From Styela clava (Eukaryota > Chordata > Ascidiacea > Stolidobranchia > Styelidae): a DNA stretch of 64,000 nucleotides. The notes under the pieces were generated by a model. It was not told the origin of the DNA, did no database searches, and saw only the letters and a list, made by a program, of their open reading frames with translations. Below are positions 1 to 14,766 of the stretch, in pieces (the first letter of the stretch is position 1; the number at the start of each line of letters is the position of its first letter). The stretch is from the NCBI RefSeq assembly GCF_964204865.1, contig NC_135258.1, positions 9,043,001 through 9,107,000 on the forward strand, given 5' to 3'. The translations under genes and the position numbers were made by a program.

Positions 1-884
1 ATTAAAACTGGAAAATTAGTGAAAAGTGATTTAAATATATATAATTGAAAAAGGGCAAGACGTTCTCTTCAGAGGTTCAGAGGTTCCTTCAGAGTTTTAT
101 TCGCTGTAAACATTTTTTATTTTCTTTTTCCATTTTCCTGTCAAATTACGATATGGTTGATTCCGTTTTGGGTATAGTGGTAAAAATATTAAAAAAAAAG
201 TATCAAGTTGAATTACGAATTACTCATATTAACATATAATAATAAATACAAGGATATTACTGAATTGATGAAATATAATACTGGACTCTGATTTGACCCA
301 TGATCCCCGTTTTACCCTTTGCACAACGTTTATTTCGGGTTATAGAAAGTGTACGACTTGACAGAATTGAACAAGCACAGCCTGTAACCCTATTTATGGT
401 ATTATATTGAAGCGGCAAAGGCACTTCCACAATCAGGCTACATTGTGGTTCACATAAAATGATTCGTAAACTTTATCCGGACGTTGTCTTTACTAACGAA
501 TGCAATGAGGTCATGTGTGGTACATGATATATATTGGCACTACTATTTCTATGAGAATCTTATGTATCAATATACCAATCACATTTATCCTTTTCTATAT
601 ATTCAGAAGAATTTTCAATATAGCTGCGGTGTACGTACAGTACAGTATAGAAAATGGTGCCCCTGGTTTAACCGTATTAAAACAATAAATTCAAAAGGGT
701 TTAAGAGAGGACAAGTGCCTTGTTTACGGATGTGACCGGGGCCTGATACGACGTGGGCACCATTATTAAACCGGGCGGTGAACAAAATTATTAACTGGGT
801 GAATGGGTTAAAAGTATTTCGCACATGGTAAAATAAATAAGCAGAATAGCAGAAAATAAAATCAGCCATAGGTTTGTTTTAACT
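1..884. other. AT-rich flank with a degenerate repeat copy
   Basis: No gene is supported here. Around 640-820 there is a badly decayed relative of the repeated unit at 885-1625 and 2466-4400: the run ATGGTGCCCC and the following tract ending near GTGACCGGG are recognisable, but the reading frame is broken. The rest is AT-rich sequence in which I see nothing coding. Confidence 0.4.
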
Positions 885-1625
885 TCCAAATAAATTGAAA
901 TGAAATTGAGATATTGTAAAATACAGATTGTAAAATTGAATCTATATGATTTTTGATATCAGTATATAGAAACAAAATATATAATCTATATATTACCGAA
1001 TCATAGAAAATTGGGTCATATAATATTATTTTTTTTTTACAGATTATAGGCAGTCAACAAGATAGGAGAAAATGGTGCCCCGGATGGCAATGATTCGGTC
1101 GCGTTAGAACAATAATTATGAAGGGATTTGCGAAAGTACAAGAGCCCTGTTTACGGAAGTGACCGGGTTCTGATACATTGTGAGCCTCCGGTGCCTTTTC
1201 TTAACAGGGTCGAGTACAAAATTATGACAAGGGTTAAACGTAGAAGCGAATGATAGCATTTCTGTTCAGATATTTTCCCACTACCGACAAAAAACATCGG
1301 AAATAGGCTGGAAATAATTTCTATAGGGCACATATTACTCAATTTGTTTTTCGATGTTCTAAATCTAAATGGTTGGTATCGAATGAATCCTGAAGTGACA
1401 AGGTATGGATTTCAAGATATCGAACTTTCAAATATTTGCTCACAAAACTAGTGGTACAGTTGCAACTATTTAATTCTGCCTTCATCATTGACATTAATCT
1501 AGTTTTATGAAGCTGTGCGTGTTGTCATGCTTGATATAACCGTTTTTAATTCTGCTACTATATTTTAACAGTCAGTACATATGTAAATACTACAACGTAG
1601 AAAAAATGGTAGTAGGAAGGTGAAT
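885..1625 (+). repeat. Duplicated unit, copy 1 (decayed coding-like segment)
   Basis: This segment is homologous to 2466-2910 joined to 4062-4400. It starts near a GAAATTGAGAT tract, contains ATGGTGCCCCGG at 1071, and ends near GTAGGAAGGTG. In this copy the frame open in copy 2 is interrupted by stops (for example TAG soon after the start), so it is probably a dead copy of an exon or short gene. I do not recognise a protein family. The second copy ends just before the TATA box of the antimicrobial-peptide gene, so the unit may be an old upstream flank of a duplicated gene. That last step is inference. Confidence 0.5.
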
Positions 1626-1919
1626 GCCACTTTCATCAATTTTAATTCATTTAAGTTCAAATAGGCAATAAAGAAGTCAATACTTTAATCTACTTTGTCG
1701 GTGTTGGCCTGACGTGGGCAAACAAAGGCCGGCTGGCCAAATCCGGCCAGTTTGTTGATTCAATTTGGCCCACCTGACACTGTCATAAAATTCTTTTAAC
1801 CAATTCTGCATTCTCTACATAGTTGTTGCTATTAAAATCTGTATGGTGCAATAGGCTTGTTAAATTAGGATTGTAGTATGTGTAAGTTGATATTTGTTTG
1901 TCACAGAATTTCATGTTAT
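1626..1919. other. Spacer, no gene seen
   Basis: Intergenic sequence. A GC-rich patch near 1695-1775 (GGCCGGCTGGCCAAATCCGG) resembles the end of a decayed DNA transposon, but no second end or target duplication was found. Otherwise nothing is supported. Confidence 0.35.
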
Positions 1920-2071
1920 GGGGACGTTAACAAAAATTTAAGTTTTCTTGCTCACTTCATTCGTCAGCGAGCTTTTCACACCACCTTATTTTGTCGCTTG
2001 CTCTTTTTATGGTCGGTCACGCGCCGCCTCGAATTTAAATTTAGTGCCCGCACATTTTTGTTAACGTCCCC
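1920..2071. mobile_element. 152-bp MITE with ~18-bp terminal inverted repeats
   Basis: The segment starts GGGGACGTTAACAAAAAT and ends with its exact reverse complement ATTTTTGTTAACGTCCCC. The interior is about 115 bp and non-coding. This is the form of a miniature inverted-repeat element. A clear target-site duplication was not seen, so the transposon superfamily is left open. Confidence 0.7.
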
Positions 2072-2465
2072 AAAACGCCCTCCTAACGTCTGTTCTTCGT
2101 CTTGTTCATAGCTTTGAGCATTCTTGCCATGTAATTTATTAGTCTATCGTTTCCAGATGGTTTTTAATGATCTGTACTCAAAAATTAAAAAGAATAGTCC
2201 CGTTGTCTAGAATGTCTAGATAGGTAATTTTAAGAAAGGTAAAATTTTATTTTTGTAGGGCTCTTGAATAGCCTACTTTGTTCCATGAAAGTACGAGATA
2301 ATTTAGATTTTATATAATGTGAAAAAATGGAGATTACAACTAGAAAATAAATACTTTTAAAAACTATTTTCTCGAAGCAAGATCACGAGAACTTACTCCC
2401 CGAGTGTGAGGTTATAGTGAGTCAGGAAAACATGCATTTGAAAAAAAAGATTGAAGGTTACTAAA
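2072..2465. other. Spacer, no gene seen
   Basis: AT-rich sequence between the MITE and the second duplicated unit. No open frame, RNA gene or repeat boundary is supported. Confidence 0.4.
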
Positions 2466-4400
2466 TTTCAAATGAACTGAAATGAAATTGAGATTTTGTA
2501 AAATTGATTCTATATGATCCTTGATGTCAGCATATAGAAACATGGGGGACCCTAATACTCTGAATACATGATATTACCGTATCATAGGAAATTGGGTCAT
2601 ATAAGATGTTTTTTCTTCTGCAGATTGTAGGCAGTCAACAAGATAGGAGGAAATGGTGCCCCGGATGGCAATGATTCGGCCGCGTTACAACAATAATTAT
2701 GAAGAGATTTGTGAAGAGGTCAAGAGCCCTGTTTACGGAAGTGACCGGGTTCTGATACATTGTGAGCCTCCGGTGCCATTTCCTAACGGGGTCGAGTACA
2801 AAATTAAAACAAGGGTTAAACGTAAAGACAAATGGTATCATTTTCGTTCCGATATTTTCTCACTACTAGCGGGAAACCTCAGAAATAGGCTGGAAATAAT
2901 TCCTATAGAGCAGTGGTTTCCAACAGAAAATAATATCATATATTAACGTAATATAATGCAATGCCTGGCACTCACTATGCTTCTATAATAAAAAATACAC
3001 TTCAAAACATTTCACATGAAGAGAATCAAATCATGTGCCGGCTAAAAAATGAAATGGTCGGAACATAAAATAATACACTATATTTGCGAAATTGTGCGTA
3101 AAAAGGCACACAGAAAACATCTCACATGGAAAAAAAACATGTACATGCCAAATTATGTACAAACACAATTAACTCTAGTGAGAATTTTGCTGCTGCTTTT
3201 TTCCAATATAGGATTGCAAACTAGGCTTTAAAGAAGTTTCTGCAACACGTCGCTCTGCAGCGGCGCCTCGTCGATTTCTCGGCTTCGTTTTAATTAAAGC
3301 TAGAGAAGTAACTGGTTGAAAATACGGACAACAGTTTGATTGCTCGATAACTTAACGATGATTATTCGTTATCAAAAGAAACAAGGCCTGTGGCAGTGAT
3401 TCTTTTTTAAATCTGGACTGTAAAGTAGAATCACAACTTTCATCAATCTTTTTCTTTTTTATCGGATTTTATCCATCTGCAGTTGATCGACGACCCGAAC
3501 AAAATAATTTAACATTGCAATGACAAAGTTGTCGGTAATTTGGCACCAGACTAAAAATCCTGCTGTGCATCACCTGGAGAAAATCTAAGCGGCTCATGCT
3601 TTTGTTTCGCGTCTCGTGACCATCTGTAGGGTCTAAACTAGTTCATATCTTGCTGGATGTCAGGGCGAAGCCCTGAAATATTAGACTGTTCTTTACTGTT
3701 ATCTGGTTTAAACAAAGAAATGTGCATAATCTTTTATTTGTATGGTCATATCAATCAGGAAGAGCATGCAAAACAGAAAACGCATGTGTGCGAGGTTTCC
3801 GAATCATGCGAGATTTGAGCGCTTTCCCGATGAATCAGAACTGAAAAGCGAAAAGTGTGATTACTCGGCGCCAAGATGTCGCCGGGCCGTTAATATTATC
3901 AAACAGCAATATGATGGCGAAAGAGAAATTGCATAATCAATCAACGCAACTTCGTCTTTTTGTCTTCGCTAAAGCAATTGAGACGGCAGAAAAGCAACAA
4001 AACAACGAAATTTCTCGCGGACCAGCACAAAACCTCGCGGACCGGCGACGGTCCGCCACTGCTATAGAGAGCACATACTACTCAATTTGTTTCTCGGGGA
4101 TCTAGATCTAAATGGTGGATATCGAATGAATCTTGAAGTGACAAGGTATGGAGATCAAGATATTGAACTTTCAAATAGGTTGCTTACAAAACTTGCTTAC
4201 AAAAGGGGTACAGTTGCACTTATTTTTTTTTTACTTTCCCCTCACCATCGACGTCAATCTAGTTTTATGAAGCTGTGCTGTTGTCACGCTTGATATAGCC
4301 GTTTTTAATTTTGCTACAATGTTTTTACAGTCAGTACATATGTAAACACTAGCACGCAGCGACGCAGAGAAAAAAATAGCAGTAGGAAGGTGCAACTCAT
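2466..4400 (+). repeat. Duplicated unit, copy 2, split by a hAT insertion
   Basis: The two halves 2466-2910 and 4062-4400 together match 885-1625; a transposon at 2911-4061 separates them. In the left half an ATG at 2653 opens a frame that runs 86 codons to the insertion point, with Cys and basic clusters but no family I recognise. Beyond the transposon the frame stops after about a dozen codons. A polypyrimidine-AG acceptor-like site lies just before the open part (near 2622), so this may be a remnant of a spliced exon. It is best read as a pseudogene-like remnant. Confidence 0.5.
2911..4061. mobile_element. hAT-type element with perfect 8-bp TSD
   Basis: The element begins CAGTGG and ends CCACTG, and is flanked on both sides by the identical 8-mer CTATAGAG (2903-2910 and 4062-4069). 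An 8-bp duplication with CAG...CTG-like ends is characteristic of the hAT superfamily. The element is 1151 bp. The only internal frame of any size (3742-3936) has no recognisable transposase feature, so it is probably non-autonomous. The empty site is visible in the paralogous unit near 1326, which confirms the insertion. Confidence 0.85.
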
Positions 4401-4471
4401 AATTTGATCCCAGATAGGCAATAGGTAGGAAATTATTAAAATATCACACAGCGTGGGAAGTATCCAAAATC

Positions 4472-4478
4472 TATAAAT
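4472..4478 (+). promoter_or_regulatory. TATA box of the antimicrobial-peptide gene
   Basis: The sequence CTATAAATAT contains TATAAAT, 54 bases before the start codon at 4532. This places a transcription start near 4500 and gives a short 5' leader, as is common for highly expressed effector peptides. No tissue or immune-response motif could be assigned. Confidence 0.65.
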
Positions 4479-4531
4479 ATGCCATTCATTTCCAGTCACA
4501 TATCTAAAATTCAAAATCTGACATATACAAG

Positions 4532-6215
4532 ATGAATACGAAAGCGGTGGTACTTGTTGCTTTATTGGCTGCGTTACTGATACAAGACACCCAAGGTTGG
4601 GGCTGGGTGAAAAAAACAGTCAGAACCGTACATCGTGTGTGGAGAAAATATCCGTAAGTAGATAAAAGACACACTATACAGAACTATTTGTCTGAATTTA
4701 TTTTGAATCATTTGAATTTACATTTCTAAAACTATCTAAGAAGTTTGCATCATCAATATCTCAATCTTCTCTATCCATCCAGTCTAGGCGATAGAAAAGT
4801 TTAATATGAATGCGTGTTGGATTTGATTTATTACAAATAAAAATTGGCAAAATCGAATTCAACTATTCAAAACTTATCAAGATGTTTCAAATAGACATCG
4901 ATTATATTTCTGCCACAAATGAATTTTCCTTTATTCAAAGACAAAAAAATTATCAATTTTGACACAATCATCTAAATATCAACTACCTGTTTTTTTGTGA
5001 AGAATTTAAAACGATATTTTTTACTGGTGTTTTTCAGCGTTGTCAGATACGTAGTCAAAAAAACGATTAAATCCTGGGATGGAATTAAAACTCTAAGAAG
5101 TATGGTAAGGTGCCCCTCAAAAACATTTCCGTATCCAAAGTCTATTTCTGCTTATTGTCCATTGTAGTTGTGCAAGTGCAAACAACAAAACCATCAAAAT
5201 TATAACCTCATTGATAACTATATGGTATATTGATTAAATTATTCCTCAACTCTAAGCTATTCAGTTCGATATGCAAAATTTCTAGGACGAAGCAGAATTC
5301 AGAAAGGCAATGTCCAAGATGGAAAATGATTTATCAGAAGAGCTGAGCGATGACACAGTTGCAGATTTCATGCAAGCAATTGAAGAAATTGTCAACTTGT
5401 CTGACGGTAACGAAACACATTGCAGTCATAATGTTAGATTTATTTAGAATGACAATGATAGGAAAACTTCAAACAAGAAAAATGAGATACAATAATGAAA
5501 TTTTGAAGTACTCTAGTACTGAATATCTCTTTTGACAACCTCGGTTGAGTAGGTCGGAAATTTGGTAATTGGACACCCAAATTGCGCAATATTATCCGAA
5601 GAGAAATAAATTCCAAAAGAAATTAGAAATTAAATATCCTAATAATTCTCACTAGTATACGGTGTAATAAATTGCGCAGTATAAGCCAGAAGGACATTTC
5701 ATGGTGAGAACATTTCTGAGTTATACGATTCTCTGTATGCATTTTCCGAAATTTACAAATATTTTCGGAGAAAATTGTTTATTAAATTATTGAGTATACT
5801 GCAATGAACAGACTGAATCAAGCAGTTTTAAATAACTGTATATTTATTTTCTATAAGCAAATGTTGAGCAATTTTATTTTTAAATTTTTTTTGTTCGATA
5901 TCAAATAGTTTTACACTCGTTCACTCCCAAACTCGCGTCACTCGTTCTGTTATACGCTGTCCTAAAACTCCTGCTATCGTCTTGTGTTTCTGTGCTTCAA
6001 AGTTTGAGCCAGTAGCAGTATATATTTTAAATTAAATCACAGTATTTACAGTAGACTTAATCTATGAAGAATGCGTCAAATTTAGTGCGTATACGTTTTT
6101 TTCATAAGCAGGTGAACTTCAACACGTGCTAAAGATGGAATCCGATACACAAGATGAAGACAGCGCTGACGTAGAATTAATGTTGGATTCTCTGCAACGC
6201 CACACATCACATTAA
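4532..6215 (+). CDS. Styelin-like cationic antimicrobial peptide precursor
   Basis: Predicted secreted host-defence peptide that would be cleaved to a membrane-disrupting cationic helix. Four exons join in frame: 4532-4653, 5038-5104, 5286-5406 and 6112-6215 (414 nt, 137 residues), all with GT-AG introns. Residues 1-22 form a signal peptide (MNTKAVVLVALLAALLIQ core, likely cut after TQG). Residues 23-63 are the mature region: four Trp (W23, W25, W37, W54), 12 Lys/Arg against one Asp, no Cys, with basic residues spaced for an amphipathic helix. Residues 64-137 are an acidic tail with 22 Asp/Glu and five Lys/Arg, as in propeptides that neutralise the cationic part. A GWG/WV start followed by KK resembles ascidian styelins; the tail is longer than I expect for that family. 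A TATA box at 4472 and AATAAA at 6226 frame the gene. Layout is seen; family name is inference. If intron 3 were retained, translation would end near 5446. Confidence 0.85.
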
Positions 6216-6225
6216 TCGATTCTCC

Positions 6226-6231
6226 AATAAA
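6226..6231 (+). terminator. Poly(A) signal of the antimicrobial-peptide gene
   Basis: AATAAA lies 11 bases after the stop codon at 6213-6215, giving a very short 3' untranslated region. The same hexamer is kept in the inverted partial copy at 11835-12172. Confidence 0.7.
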
Positions 6232-7499
6232 GTATAATTCAATGATGGCAAAACTGATTGAAATCAATTCTATCCAGTTGCCACGATTATACAACGACGA
6301 CATTTTGCTCATTCAAGGCTTCCTCTAATTTTTTTTATTTTTCCAACAATACCCAGATAAGAATATGTTTCATAAGAACTTATACTCGAGACAGTTAATT
6401 TGACGTATCGCCACACCATCGCTGTACTGGGGTCATCTCTCATGCAAAATATATCGTAAACATAGAATATCAGTTTCTTTATTATTATTGCAGAACACAG
6501 GGGTGTGTAGGTATGCAAACTGCGGCCTCGAAAAAATGTTGAAAATTGGCTCTTATAGGCGCTATGCTCTTTTACAGACTGAAACGATATCATACAAACT
6601 AAAAATGAACACCAAAAATACATCTTAATAGCGCCGTGAGAAGTAAAACATACTACCGCAGGCAATGCGGATAAAACGCAATAAATTGATAGTGCATGAT
6701 AAAAAATATATATATAAATACTGGGGTAGAATTCTCCTCGCGTCATTAAGATACAGCGACTGTATATATAAGGATAACAACATCAAGTAGTTTGAGGTAT
6801 ATTTGTTTCCAGTTACATTTTTAATAGTATTGCAGAAACGGTTCATTTTCATGATATAAATATTATTTCATTTGTGTTTGTGGTTGGAGAGTGGCCATAC
6901 GTGAACCATCGTCGTCAGCTTTTTACACCAAGTATACATATGATTCAGTTACAACTATTGACTGTTTTGAAAAAGATAAATTATCGAAAAAATTTACAGT
7001 AAAAGCATTTTTTCTGAAATGTATAATAAAATAAATACAAGAAAAGCATATCGAGAGGAAATTTACATCAAAGGCAAAGTTGAAGAAATGTAGGCCTATA
7101 AAAATTACAAAGAAAGCAAACAACAAATAAGAAAAATTGTTTACAACTAAAGCATTTCGGGAAAGAACACATAAAATATCTATATTGAAGTCCGTAAAAA
7201 TTAAAATAAATCGCAACGAAAATGGTCATCGAATTGTTGTCATTCAGATATAGAACTATTAGTGTAGCGGGTAGCATATTAGAATTAGACTTACACCTAT
7301 AGTTCGCTCTACTTTGCCTTGCAAAAAATGCTGGTATTGTGAAAAATAGCTTTTCAATGAATTTACAATTTTTCAAAACTTAATTAAAGATAGAGTAATC
7401 TCCATTGTCTATTACCAAGAATTGGGCCGATACTGTCGATACCGATACATCGATACATCTCTAGTCAGTATGTGGTGTTTTTGAAAAGATATAACAATT
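6232..7499. other. Intergenic stretch, no gene seen
   Basis: AT-rich sequence between the convergent antimicrobial-peptide gene and lectin gene. Its first ~200 bases (to about 6440) are repeated in inverted form at 11835-12030. Several short open frames are present but have no start context, splice sites or recognisable composition. Confidence 0.5.
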
Positions 7500-10400
7500 T
7501 TACTGGCATAAAGCACCAAAGCCTACTTTATGCCAATATCGATAAAGAATGAATGCTTGTCCATTTGATATTTTCATTACCACTCCGACATCTTTTTCTT
7601 CTGCTGGCAGATTAGGGTATTTTAACAACCAGTTGGGTTCGGTACCATCGATGAACGTCAGATTTTTAATCTGTAAATAAACAAACGGTTTGAAGCGAGT
7701 ATTGATTCCGCTGGTATCGTGTGTAATATCTTTATAACAAAGCATTGATTATCATTGAAAATAATTAAATATACAACTCGCATTAGGTAACATATTACTA
7801 AAATCATATTTTGTAATTTCTCAAGTATAAATTAATATTGCACCAATGAAAAATATCGAATTATCACTCAAAATTGAGGTATATTGGTCAATGTTAGTGT
7901 CGCAAATATTTTCTGACATGCCAGGATTTAAAATCAAGCAGTAGAGCAATCATCAGAACTCGACAAGATAAATATTTCGTTATTAGGATATTTCATGTAA
8001 ACTTTTGATATAAAATTTTGTTAGGATGCTGCTCGGAAATGCTAATAATGTCCACAAACGATTTTTTTAATTTGAGACAACGTCAAAGAGATACCATAAG
8101 CGTAATGTAATAATCCATAACATGTAATAGCATCAGTAAAATGAGCAAAAGTGCCGCATGCGAGTTGTTTACTTCAGTTACTAGAATGAACACTTTTCAT
8201 AATCCAATCTTATAAGTCAGCTCTGATACTGTTCAATATAAAACTTATTGATTCTCACCTCAGAACTGTATTTCATTCCAGTCCAAATAAAAAATGATTG
8301 ATTTTCATCCTCAGCTAACCACGGTTCCATGTAAGAGGCGATAAGATTATATTGCTTTCTACTTGTGATGTCGGCGAGTTTTCGACCAATCGTTTCACAA
8401 ACCGAGATAGCACCAGTAAAGTTTGTTGTTTTTTCACCAATCTTAATTGGCCAGGTACATTTACCGTTATGGTAGATCGGGCACGTTTCTGTAAAATATA
8501 ATTCATGACTGAGTATTTATCAAAAAAATTTTCTATATATTTCAATGTAATCTAACGATAGTTTATCGATAATCACATTTTTCTCATTGAATGAAAAGCT
8601 TCATGATACGTTTTGGCATTAGCCTATCAGGTAAAGTACAATGCATCAGTTATATAGAATAGATTATACTTTAGAATAAAAGGCAGAATAGAATTTTTAG
8701 GGCGCAAAAAATTCTTTGCACCCAATAATTTTTTTTTTTTGAATATAAATTATGCAGCTAACCTCCTTCTTTGGTCGCATCAACCTTTCTACGTAGTTGA
8801 GCAACAATATCTAAAATGAAAAACAATGTGGGATTAAATTTTCAAATCATATATGAAAAAAATTAGCAGGTTCGGGTTAAAAAAAAGTTTATATTTAAAT
8901 ATTATACGAATTTTGCTTTTGCCGATCCGAGAGATAGAAAATGGACGTATTGTTGCCATATCTCTAAAATTATGCGGCGAGTTTAGAAAATAGAAAATTT
9001 AGTTGATTTTACCAAACATAAGGTTGGTGCCTGATATCTGTAAGTCATACTATCTGTTTCTCATCTTTTTATTTTGAGATTTATTTAATAATTGATATAA
9101 ATATACAGAGGAAAACATCTCTCAGCGATTGGCCAGCTTGTTAACTATATTACACACTCATTTCACTTATATTAAATGCTTACTACATGGTTTAATTTTG
9201 ATCATAGCATTACCTTCTCCGTCAGGTTTTTCGCAATTTCCTTGAGAAACAAAATGTCCGTTTATGATTCTGGTAATACACGGACCTGAATCCCCTCTAA
9301 AGATAGACATCAGTTAATTTTATGGAATACATAATATTTCCATACTTGAAAATGCGGATCTGTCGCAATATTATCTAATTCAGGGGTCACCAAACTACGG
9401 CCCGCGGGCAGGATCCGGCACGTGGCGTCTTTCATACGGCCCGCGATAACACAAAAAATGGCGATTTTTTTTCCAATGAATTAGGCCGCGAGACGAGGCC
9501 GTTTATATTTCAGTTTCGTACCGCACATTAAGAACTACTTGGGAATGATTTTAAAATGTTCCTCAGAAATTAAATAACAAATAATACCTTGTTTCCATTC
9601 CCAAAAGTTGCACGTTTTACGAAAAAGACTCTTTTACTACAAAAAATAAGTGCTATACCCTCGGTCTCAAATTCTCTGCCATTTCGGCGACATTGGCCAA
9701 TGAACGCAGACTTCTACGTGACCTAACAATTAAAATGTTATCAGCTGTAGGCGGGCGGATGAATCTAACTTTGTACTTCTTTCTCTTGCGTTGAGTTGGG
9801 TAGCCTTTTCATTTTTTTTTTTAAGTTATTACTACTTAAGTTATGACGGTGACGGTGTTCAAAGGCATAAAAGCTATTTTTTGAAGATTTGTAGAACCTT
9901 ACCATAGTTACCAAAAGTTGAGCATTAACTGATATAACGTTGTTAAATAGGTACCGTTAACATTAAGGAAGGCTAGACCTCATCGGTATTCTCGTGCTAA
10001 AATGAACGTCGAACGCATTTTACAGGTCACGTTAACTTTTGTACTGCTTTCATTCAATTCTTGTGCTAACAGCTAACCTCAGGATAGCTGTCTATAAATC
10101 ATGCATATTTGTTCTGCAATGATGTTCTTGATCTATATTCTGCGATATAGAATTTAATATTCAAGCCTTCAGAAATGTAGAATTCATATTGTTGAAGAAA
10201 ATGAATGCATTTCCCAACTTTAGGGAATTTATTGTATCGCATTGACAAAAATAGGTGCTCCCGAAGTATGCGAACCAAGATGGCGGACATCGGAATATGC
10301 GAACCAAGATGGCGGACATCGGAACGTAACATGGGTAACAGGTTAGGGTTAGGCGATAATTTTTTTCCAATTTTCCTTATTTTAGTCCTATTATCAGTTC

Positions 10401-10926
10401 GAAGACTAGCCAAGAGCCTCCCGTAGTATTTATACCTAAAATCATGGCCTAACCCTAACCTAGTACACATATTACATTCCAATGTCCGCCATCTTGGTTC
10501 GCATATTCCGATGCCCGCCATCTTGGTTCGCATACTTCGGGAGCCCCCAAAAATATTTGTCCGGCCCGTTTCAACACAGTTTGAGTCAAACCTGGCTCGC
10601 GGTCAAATAAGTATTATGACTCCTGATCTGATTGATTGATTTTGTATAGTCGCCGATAATATAAATGCAATATTACATTTTCAAATACCATCTGTCTATA
10701 AAATAATTGTATTGATACATTTACAAGAACACCTTGCCCTGTACTGCTATTAATTGGTCAAAAAAAAAAAACTGTGTTTAAATACAATGAAGTCTGTCTA
10801 TAATAATAATGAATTCATGTTAAACGGGTGATAGTGTTTCAATAGTTACTATAATACCTTAGCTTGTATTGACATTATTAGGCCACAAGCAAATCCAATA
10901 ATGCTGATTATCATGTAGAATTTCAT
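7500..10926 (-). CDS. Secreted C-type-lectin-like domain protein
   Basis: Predicted secreted CTLD protein of 204 residues, possibly a pattern-recognition protein. Minus-strand exons in order: 10858-10926 (start ATG, signal peptide beginning MKFYMIISIIGF), 10725-10738 (14 nt, tentative), 9214-9296, 8763-8810, 8259-8488 and 7500-7670. All later junctions agree in phase; the mini-exon is proposed because exon 1 ends in phase 0 while the 9296 exon needs phase 2, and GGC..TT with flanking AG and GT fits. The 8488 exon holds the domain start (TCPIYHNGKC, later WTGMKY) and the last exon ends GALCQ-stop, the usual final Cys. An EPN triad follows GT near the start of the last exon, the place of the calcium/sugar-binding EPN loop. 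The second Cys pair (EDC...WNDxxC) and the WND motif are absent. It faces the antimicrobial gene tail to tail. A hAT element sits in the intron between the mini-exon and the 9296 exon. Confidence 0.72.
9381..10625. mobile_element. hAT-type element in the lectin gene intron
   Basis: The left end is CAGGGGTCACCAAACT followed by a GC-rich CGGCCCGCGGGC tract. The right end is GACTCCTG. Flanks are ATCTAATT (9373-9380) and ATCTGATT (10626-10633), a 7/8 match that fits an old hAT 8-bp target duplication. Length is 1245 bp and no transposase frame is visible, so it is non-autonomous. A different inverted-repeat element is nested at 10257-10544. Confidence 0.75.
10257..10544. mobile_element. Nested foldback MITE (AAGATGGCGGACAT family)
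   Basis: The element starts GCTCCCGAAGTATGCG and ends with the reverse complement. Each arm carries two tandem copies of a unit containing GAACCAAGATGGCGGACATC, and the inner part has TTAGGGTTAGG-like runs. About 65 bp at each end can pair, so it is a foldback element. It belongs to the same family as the elements at 35209, 41564, 43335 and 54155. Confidence 0.75.
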
Positions 10927-11834
10927 CGTCTCTGTGGCCTGGTCGTCAAACACTGACTTCAATTCTAACTGTTTAGTACAGTAATAATTTTACAGTGCAA
11001 AGAAGTACAGCAAAAACGACGAAAAATTTTGAAATTGCTAGAAATTCGAGTTAACATAATCAATAGATATGTTAATGCACCGCCACTTTTTTTTTTAAAT
11101 ATTTGCTACGAACGCTCAAACTTCATCATAATTCCTATATTGAAATGAGCAATAGCCTTTTCAGAAAATGCTCACTGCCGTGTTACAGCCCGTTAAAGTT
11201 ATTATAAAACTTCCAACATAATGGGATGCGATTAAAAATTGATAACAATGACTCAGTGCTTCCGATCGTTCACTAGAATCAGGGTATTTATGAAAATTTA
11301 GTAATACCACGCTCAACTACTGCTGAAATAACGTCACACAATTTTAGACGGAACTCACATTGTTATATCAATGATGAATGATGCAGAGTGGAACTGACTT
11401 TTATTCCAGTCCACGGTGGATACTGTTAAAAAGTACAGCCTATGCATTCTTCGAAAAGAATTTTCTGGTGTCATCTTTATAAAAGTGACAATTCGAATGA
11501 TAATCTATATGTCAATATAAAGTGATAAAATGGCAGTTATTTTAGTGTAAAATATCTGTTATTTCAGTCGAAATTTTTGTCTCGAAGAATGCTGATTTAT
11601 TTTGCAGACTTGTAGTCACAATTCATATTCTTGCTTGCGAACTTAGTAATAATAATAAATGACATTTATAATGAATATTAATTATAAAAAACATATCACC
11701 TTAGGGAAGATGGTATAATATAGGATTTCTGACACACACGTATGTCAAGTTGAAGGAGGTATGAGTACTCCAATACTCGCATTAATACACATTTATTCAG
11801 ATACCTGTCGCGGCGCCATTAGGACAAAATTTAT
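10927..11834. other. Upstream region of the lectin gene, no further gene seen
   Basis: This contains the 5' leader of the minus-strand lectin gene immediately after 10926, then AT-rich sequence. No second gene or complete repeat is supported. A core promoter could not be assigned with confidence. Confidence 0.45.
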
Positions 11835-12172
11835 GGTAGTACAGCGATGGTGTGGCGATACGTCAAATTAATCTGTCTTGGGTATAAGTTCCTATGAAAC
11901 ATATTCATATCTGGGTATTGTTGGAAGAAAAAGAAAATTAGAGGAAGCCTTGAGTTAGACTTTATTAGAGAATCGATTAACGTGATGTGTGGCGTTGCAG
12001 AGAATCCAACATTATTTCCACGTCAGCGCTGTTAATAATGTGATTCAATTTGAAAAATATTCCTTTACTGGTCCAGACATTGCAGCAAAGAAACATACGC
12101 TAGCAGATGGCGTTTCAGGAAAAAGGACTTTCACAGTGAGAGTGACGCGAGTTTGGGAGTGAACGAGTGTGA
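11835..12172 (-). pseudogene. Inverted, deleted copy of the antimicrobial gene 3' end
   Basis: Read on the minus strand, this matches intron 3 (from about 5917), the second half of exon 4 and about 200 bases of 3' flank of the antimicrobial gene (to about 6440), including the coding run around GCTGACGT, the region of the stop codon and an AATAAA. Roughly 110 bases are missing between the intron part and the exon part, which removes the splice acceptor and first half of exon 4. Exons 1-3 were looked for up to 13.3 kb and not found. It is therefore a non-functional fragment left by a duplication with inversion. Confidence 0.7.
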
Positions 12173-13354
12173 AACTTTTTATATCACACAAAAAAATCTC
12201 AAAAATAAAAATTTGCTAATATAAAAAATAATATAAAATTTATATAAATTTATTTTTTGCGATCTATCAATATAAACGTATAATTGGCTAAATACGCCAA
12301 AAAATTATGCTACTGTTTAACAAGAGATGGATGCTCAAATATATCGACAGGAAAGCCAAAACGAGGTAGTACAGGTTTGCAATTTGTCACGAGAGACTAC
12401 TGGTGCCGCGGTTTTTAATTCACGATTTCAACCGCTATAATGTGCACAATTTTTAATTTAGATAACGTAATGGCACACAAACAAACAAATTCCGGAGCCC
12501 AGAAATTTTTTGAAATAAATGAAAGTAATAGCCTTTTAGCGAAAAATACAATCTTTGACCATTGAGAATTTTAAAGCAATTGGACCAGTATAGTTTAAAG
12601 TCGTGTTTTAGTTGTTAGAGATAAAAGAGATATGAGTGAGTTTGTGCAAACAGATTAGGAGAGTTCTATGTCATTGGAGTTAACATGCTATCTTGCCTGC
12701 ATGTTAATCTAGGTCAATTGATATTAGGGCATCGAGTACAGATTGTTTGGTAAACGTCAATGACACTGAATGGACAAAAAGACTGGAAAAGTTTGCAGGT
12801 CAATGTAGATTGATCAAAGATTGTCAGTCGTGAAAGCTAGCAAAGCGACCGAGAGGTAGCCAGTAGTATTGACTGTTTGGCAAGAAAGCTAAATCGTGGT
12901 TTTGTATTTCGACCCTTATATACTGTGAACAATCGAAATATTTGACATGACAATGACATTTTTGATAATCGAATGCAAAAAATACGAGATGTATAAAGCT
13001 GTAAAATTTACAAACTTGCGTTTTTTACCTCTCAAAATCCCGTGTTAAAGTGCTTAATACGGTTTTAAACTTAAGATTATTGTAAACAAACAAAAAACGC
13101 TTATTACAAGTGAAGAAAAACAATTACATTTTATGTACATTTTTAGGTAAATCGAACAATTACTAATTCTGAAATGGCTTTGTTTGATAGGGTCTACGAA
13201 TGCATTTTTATCAGGTTTGTCACATATTTTATAGTTGGCTTTCTTTACGTGGATTTGTTTTATTAAAATTGTGATTGATTTCACGAGCAGCTGTTTTTAA
13301 GCACTGCGGTTTCCTGTTGTTTATGTGTTGTTCATGTTATTGTTTACAATCGCC
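12173..13354. other. Intergenic stretch with a dispersed repeat
   Basis: No gene is supported. Bases 13025-13255 are a diverged relative of 20290-20490: shared landmarks are AACGCTTATTACAAG, GTACATTT, AAATCGAACAAT-like, and ATGCATTTTTAT. Both copies are AT-rich and non-coding. The rest shows nothing recognisable. Confidence 0.45.
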
Positions 13355-14766
13355 ATGGCGGATTTTGATACTCAGGACATACTAGCAGTTGTAAGGGAAA
13401 GCGACCGAAAGGGTGAAAACGATGACGCATTTTTCTTGCACGTCGCAACACCTGGAAAGCCACCATCTGCATTGCATAGGAAAGTGATAGTTCCCTTCCT
13501 GAAGGATCATGGCTGGAGAAAAGTCAGCTATCAGAAAACTGGATTCAGGTATGTATTACTCACTTGCAAATTGATGCAAGTTTACGGGCTGTTTCAGTCA
13601 CATTGATGTATATAGCTGTGGGAAAAGCAGGCTTTTTAAATTGTGCTGGAACAGCATCCTGTTGTTTCCACCATTCACTAAGTTCTAATCTGTTTTCTTC
13701 AAATTCTAGTTAGCAAATTAGGTGAATGCCCCGCCTTTAACTAACATGACATAACCTGATTCAAAAAATACGCCGATACAAAGAAACTACCTCAGGGCAT
13801 TAGTGGCAGGATATTAATAGATGCAGCCATGGTTTCACGACTGAATTTGACATTTTAACAACATCAATAATATTTTAATGCAACAGAAAATTTCATTTTA
13901 TCCGGGGTCGGTCATGTTACCTGATTGGGACTACGTCTGGAATTGAACCTCCGATTTGAATCGTATTTACAAATAGAAAGGGCCATTCCGAGCACATGTT
14001 GAATTTCATCAATTTTTTTGAAAGTATAGTGAAAGTAATTTTTTTTGTATTTTTTTATATCAAAAGACATTGGAATTTTATTGGATTGCATTCATTTCAA
14101 CGAAAAAGTTTTTGATGGTTTATACAAAATGACCTGAAATGTCGAAATTTTGGTATAATTGACATATTTTGTGATGATTCGTGACACAAAGTGTTTGATT
14201 ATGCAAAACAGTTATTTGGTATGAAATAGACGCACTGGGCTTTGTACCCATGTGTTTTTGCGTTGACCGTTCAGTAAATTAGATCTTTGGGTCCCAAATT
14301 CCCAATAGCAGTAAACAGCAGATTTGCTCGATAATACATTTTTTCTAATGGTTTTGTGGCACACAACTTCTCTTCAAAAGGCAAGCAAACTGCGGATACC
14401 TTAATCCTCCACATCCAAACTTTACTGGGCAGTATTTTTAGTAATAAATAATGAACGAATACGTTACGCCATTATTTTATTGTTAACCATTTTAGAGCTC
14501 TTTATTTTCTGCGAAAAGAAAGCGACGAGACAACATACAACAACGGTCGTCAAAACCTGAAACAATTGAATATACACAAATCCAGTCCTTCGAATGCAAC
14601 ACAGCTGCTGGCAATGAATCATCGTTCGGAATTGAAACGTAGAATCGAGGATTACAAACGTCAACATAATTTAAGCTTCCATATTCATCTTATTCTTTCT
14701 CGACCTCTTGATTATGAAGAAGATTTTGCTGAAATTGCAAACAAACACGAAAATAATGGAGTTTAG
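13355..14766 (+). CDS. Unrecognised two-exon gene, 154-residue basic protein
   Basis: Exon 1 is 13355-13548 and exon 2 is 14496-14766, joined in phase 2 (AG|gtatgt ... tttag|A) to complete an Arg codon. The start at 13355 was chosen because its context GCCATGGCG is near-ideal; an upstream in-frame ATG at 13334 is weaker. The protein is soluble, begins MADFDTQDILAVVRESDRKG, has a Gly-Lys-Pro-Pro stretch near residue 35, a segment rich in Lys and Trp near residue 55, and a basic, possibly helical region near residues 105-120 (LKRRIEDYKRQ). There is no signal peptide or membrane segment. AATAAA at 14823 follows the stop by 56 bases. I do not recognise the family; the joined frame, start context and poly(A) signal are the reasons to call it real. 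Confidence 0.62.

Follow-up and report, generated by a model that had tools for sequence, protein, structure and literature searches.

Botryllin, a peptide of Botryllus schlosseri that its authors call styelin-like (accession OP851480), is described as the product of a 158-residue precursor, in which the signal takes up 23 residues and the peptide (charge 11.2) another 37 (PMC9966394). According to the same account, morula cells carry its transcript, a synthetic version is lethal to bacteria and yeast, and antibodies, one against the propeptide included, label both morula-cell granules and released traps; a KHK motif is given there as common to styelins and botryllin. Styelins are described as being cut before Asp in a study of Ciona intestinalis (PMC7387483), whose screen covered precursors of 50-100 residues only. 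The Ci-MAM and Ci-PAP precursors in that description have a signal, a cationic amphipathic helix and, in 17 of the 22 listed candidates, an anionic helix, and the anionic helices listed are of 35 residues or fewer. Clavanin is described as a His-rich mature peptide of 23 residues (PMC2866484).

The gene considered here, A1, lies in a 64,000-nucleotide stretch of the Styela clava genome (hereafter, the window) on contig C10. A preliminary description had proposed that it encodes a styelin-like precursor made of a signal, a cationic peptide and an acidic tail, and this proposal holds, as true styelins in the same genome have a matching gene structure. Like the styelins (PF17562), A1 combines a signal, a cationic peptide that is linear, free of Cys and has Trp at or beside its first residue, and an acidic tail, spread over four exons, with introns 1 and 2 in the same places and phases and, if cut before Asp, a peptide of 31-32 residues. 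It differs from them in tail length (74 vs 24 residues), in intron 3 (phase 1 vs phase 0) and in the KHK motif, which is absent from the 137 residues of A1 and present in all three genomic styelins that we modelled. Compared by description, botryllin and A1 are both long precursors, and botryllin, unlike A1, keeps KHK. Its tail comes to ~98 residues by subtraction, longer than the 74 of A1; given the published lengths of the botryllin precursor, signal and peptide, a long tail is therefore not new, and the earlier view that the A1 tail is unusually long for such precursors is not supported, all the more as tails of 68-80 residues occur in six of the nine non-styelin models described below. With the Ci-MAM type of LCAMP, as described, A1 shares an anionic region after the cationic part, which is a common layout and not proof of common descent. 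The order of parts had also been likened to that of clavanins. On the two features compared with the published account, His-richness and length, A1 differs from clavanin: the cationic part of A1 has one His and a predicted length of 32 residues, not 23.

The window gene and its product

A1 consists of four exons, all with GT-AG junctions and in-frame joins, giving 137 residues with intron phases of 2, 0 and 1. The features of the locus are listed here, in window positions unless a contig is named.

4472..4479, + strand: TATA-box-like TATAAATA, matched by eye, 53 bases 5' of the ATG; the region upstream of the paralogue A2 has one too
4532..4653, + strand: exon 1, signal peptide (residues 1-22) followed by the N-terminal half of the cationic peptide; phase 2 at its end
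5038..5104, + strand: exon 2, C-terminal half of the cationic peptide, with the predicted cut before Asp55, between KSW and DGIKTLRSM; ends in phase 0
5286..5406, + strand: exon 3, conserved acidic tail module of 121 nt with two units of ~20 residues (from residues 63 and 83)
6112..6215, + strand: exon 4, variable end of the acidic tail, stop codon TAA
6226..6231, + strand: AATAAA polyadenylation-like signal, by eye, shortly 3' of the stop
11866..12210, - strand: broken partial copy (blastn, tblastn), made of an intron 3 piece, the second half of exon 4 and 3' flank, without the exon 4 start or acceptor
C10:9033807-9034304: broken partial copy in the other arm of the duplication

The junctions of A1 are supported by conservation. 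A second full copy, A2 (C10:9039249-9037855, 140 residues), lies 8.3 kb from A1 on the opposite strand and keeps all four exons open, with junctions and phases as in A1, which confirms the gene that had been proposed at these positions together with its reading frame. Assembly of the four exons by chance is out, because the same structure is found in A2 and in seven further non-styelin genes. The first genome pattern search for A1 returned short matches only, and a search for solved-structure relatives of the product gave a best E of 0.19 and no sensible match.

Recomputed from the translation, the charge by composition is +11 over residues 23-63 and -17 over residues 64-137, and Cys is absent downstream of the signal, so that the cationic-then-acidic, Cys-free product of the preliminary description stands. 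The signal (residues 1-22, cut site placed by eye) and the helix were read from the sequence. Within the cationic part, the helical moment peaks at 0.735 for an 18-residue stretch, a value that 61 of 5000 shuffles attain; the helical moment of the tail is within the shuffle range (879 of 5000 reach it). The cationic segment had been put at 41 residues, and its net charge holds over that length, but the mature peptide is more likely to comprise the 32 residues 23-54 (+10), the longer estimate being probably nine residues too long by the styelin rule of a cut before Asp. Applied to the first Asp of exon 2, this rule predicts peptides of 32, 32 and 31 residues in the three styelins and 32 in A1. 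A Gly precedes the cut in each styelin and could serve amidation; the A1 peptide would end in Trp (W54, before D55), and this lack of a Gly before the predicted cut suggests no amidation of the kind that the styelin genes indicate.

A1 lies within an imperfect inverted duplication of ~25 kb (C10:9032119-9056937, window ~1-13937), the arms of which are 80.7-93.2% identical among the pieces listed, and each arm holds one full gene (A1 or A2) and one broken partial copy. Such a setting, with two broken copies alongside, is what one could expect if A1 were itself an antimicrobial gene copy that has decayed or is not expressed. However, neither A1 nor A2 has a damaged junction or a broken frame, and exons 1, 3 and 4 diverge between them by 2.5%, 4.1% and 6.7%, as against 7.8-11.6% in the introns (9.0% in intron 1), and we regard decay as very unlikely. 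Taken together, the tail exons of A1 and A2 differ at 12 of 225 nt, with no indel. Exon 2 diverges by 19.4%, with a 9-base length change, and exceeds the introns. Exons 1 and 3 are conserved between the two genes, and exon 2, half of the predicted killing peptide, has diverged faster than introns. Positive selection on exon 2 is not concluded, as dN is 0.256 and dS 0.585, so that replacement of the exon is as likely; exon replacement or gene conversion fits equally. Elsewhere in this part of the window, an open stretch adjoining A1 (8217-8516, - strand) has a weak C-type lectin match (PF00059, E 0.03, below the cut-off), and the stretches 1045-1250 and 2620-2830 are near-alike by eye, probably a dispersed repeat.

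True styelins and a dispersed set of related genes

Searched genome-wide, PF17562 gave nine exon matches in the interval C10:16.31-16.34 Mb; eight exceed the cut-off, and together the nine make up three four-exon genes of 80-81 residues with phases of 2, 0 and 0. We take these three genes to be the Styela clava styelins. One of them, scanned as a positive control, scored 138.8 bits across all 59 model positions. The same genome-wide search reports neither A1 nor the other non-styelin genes. Against Pfam Styelin, A1 itself scores 14.7 bits (E 0.04, profile positions 1-56 of 59), which is under the curated cut-off of 27 bits, and a clearly irrelevant model, Spectrin_2, outscores Styelin slightly on the same protein (15.7 bits, E 0.017, below its own cut-off). 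A2 scores 10.9 bits (E 0.63, rank six of six), and six other non-styelin models, F being the one not scanned, have no Styelin match at E <= 1; none of the eight scanned members reaches the Pfam cut-off. A genome search with gene G, on contig C4, also matches exon 1 of a true styelin (E 0.009, 37%, residues 1-41), more than half of the match being signal peptide. As judged by the Pfam model, A1 is thus best classed as styelin-related and not as a styelin. The suggestion of a new member or family is right in that A1 is below the Styelin cut-off and belongs to a gene set that PF17562 misses, but what it appears to be is a longer-tailed relative of the styelins and not a new kind of molecule.

The nine non-styelin models come from genome searches with five proteins (A1, D, B, E and G) and a local scan, F, F2, H and A2 not having served as queries, and the genome match counts are lower bounds. 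They comprise A1, A2, B and H on C10, D, F and F2 on C3, E on C1 and G on C4. All 12 models (the nine and the three styelins) have a phase 2 intron 1 that interrupts the cationic peptide and a phase 0 intron 2 where the acidic part begins; intron 3 is in phase 1 in the nine non-styelins and in phase 0 in the three styelins. The third exon measures 121 nt in six of the nine (A1, A2, D, E, G and F2), 109 nt in F, 61 in B and H, and 57 in the styelins. The tail has 74 residues in A1 and A2, 75 in D, 68 in G, 76 in F and 80 in F2; the remaining three tails have 43 (E), 36 (B) and 36 (H) residues, and those of the styelins 24. The predicted cationic peptide ranges from 29 to 52 residues across the nine. 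The fourth exon of E has only 11 nt, which leaves the end of that model unsure, and G uses a GC donor at one junction.

Further matches were seen around these genes. Three B-like exon 1 matches at C10 8.84-8.91 Mb form, with B and H, a short-tail cluster (C10:8839759-8952323) about 95-210 kb from A1, and weak B-like exon matches lie at C4:4.85-4.97 Mb. Exons like those of G are found at C4:7121200 and 7125021, with weak ones at C3:16.14-16.15 Mb. On C3, an inverted partial copy of F2 is seen by eye just 5' of F2, head-to-head like A1 and A2.

Among the open-access matches listed, searched by title and the beginning of the abstract, we found no multi-locus long-tail styelin-like family in Styela. 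As far as we have searched, A1 is an ordinary gene that has gone undescribed, probably coding for a long-tail styelin-related host-defence precursor of a larger family.

Conservation and make-up of the acidic tail

Conservation of single exons was assessed with left-out profiles, each exon being scored against the profile of the same exon from other genes with 5000 shuffles. For A1 exon 3 against the profile of five other genes, 0 of 5000 shuffles reach the score (4979 scored). The corresponding counts for the other groups are 0/5000 in E, 0/5000 in D, 1/5000 in G and 64/5000 in F, where the likeness is weaker. By these profile scores, exon 3 is alike beyond shuffles in four of the five groups tested, making it an acidic module conserved across loci. 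The second exon of A1 is likewise matched by the profile of seven other genes (0/5000, 3839 scored), the first half of the peptide gives a score reached by 3 of 5000 shuffles, and exons 2 and 3 together stand out against the profile of the three styelins, B and H (0/5000, 4682 scored). Homology of exon 4 to genes other than A2 was not found (256/5000 and 2536/5000 shuffles).

The tail does not appear to be a simple internal repeat, the self-alignment of the A1 tail being weak (15 of 300 shuffles) and exon 3 against exon 4 giving 275/5000; the tail of gene B contains a plain 20-residue repeat (0/2000). Intron 2 provides a fixed register, and in it a profile of two styelins and B picks a unit at A1 residues 83-96 (4 of 20000 whole-tail shuffles, and 1 of 20000 when restricted to residues 77-137). 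Nothing stands out among units in exon 4 with the same profile (11171/20000 and 6493/20000). The Ciona tail helices resemble the 20-residue unit of A1, with the Ciona register set by hand. In a scan to which Ciona units and B exon 4 were added, with the register set by eye, none of 20000 shuffles reach the summed score of three units, and 44 of 20000 reach that of the third alone. Because of that register, we limit our claim to exon 3, which on the profile evidence appears to hold two acidic units of ~20 residues; units in exon 4 are not supported.

What such a module might do can be seen in two ways. The preliminary description had offered the tail either as a separate product or as a chaperone-like neutraliser, and of these the neutralising role fits our observations; nothing that we found favours a separate product over it. 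A working tail, or exon 3 module, could be an anionic helical peptide or a helper in granule folding and sorting, with the cationic part as one of two products. It would accord with an exon 3 that keeps its 121 nt in most of the non-styelin genes and its sequence between chromosomes behind a cationic peptide of varying length, with the A1-A2 tail substitutions (dN 0.040 vs dS 0.130) and with the labelling of released traps by the propeptide antibody in the published botryllin account (PMC9966394). However, this conservation is equally expected of a neutraliser, and exon 4, just 11 nt long in E, is not conserved beyond A2 in the tests made; we consider a working tail product rather unlikely. 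Counting against the neutraliser, charge matching between peptide and tail is not supported by the correlations: across 12 genes, r is -0.51 (976 of 20000 permutations), with one gene per group -0.55 (1836/20000) and without G -0.24 (4876/20000).

A proposed precursor with a neutralising tail

We propose that A1 is probably a styelin-like host-defence precursor, with a helical killing peptide of ~32 residues and a tail that acts as its covalent neutraliser. The 22-residue signal would direct the product into the secretory pathway, probably to blood-cell granules. Residues 23-54, WGWVKKTVRTVHRVWRKYPVVRYVVKKTIKSW (+10), would form a linear amphipathic cationic helix that disrupts microbial membranes. 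In the precursor, the acidic tail may pair with this helix and cancel its charge, keeping it harmless and soluble, until a protease cut before Asp55 would free the peptide. In favour of this reading are the gene model and its charges, the helical moment of the cationic part, the intron places and phases common to all 12 models, the fitting cut position, the match of exons 2 and 3 to the profile of the styelins, B and H, and the published account of botryllin. Against it weigh the sub-threshold Pfam score, with Spectrin_2 slightly ahead and A2 the only other scanned non-styelin model to match Styelin, the missing KHK motif, the lack of a Gly before the predicted cut, the ordinary helical moment of the tail and the failure of charge matching. 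Alternatively, the protein could be secreted and never cut, its cationic and acidic parts serving a structural or matrix role, for example in the tunic or in extracellular traps. Opposite charges in one chain may drive self-association, and botryllin is described in fibrillar traps (PMC9966394), but A1 has its gene structure and a suitable cut position in common with the styelins, which are described as cut before Asp (PMC7387483), and we hold an uncut matrix protein to be very unlikely.

What draws attention to A1 is its acidic exon, which stays constant across much of the family while the predicted killing peptides in front of it change. It is possible, and we put it forward only tentatively, that the dispersed family unseen by Pfam Styelin works as a "variable warhead, constant safety catch," one acidic exon neutralising killing peptides of varied sequence and length. 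If true, new killing peptides could evolve behind the same acidic catch. Can one acidic exon hold many different killing peptides safe? The question is a testable one, and the nine candidate precursors, each with a predicted cut (the end of E being unsure), may be of use for work on ascidian immunity and for peptide screening. They extend the styelin group beyond a handful of short haemocyte peptides, to a larger gene set on at least four contigs.
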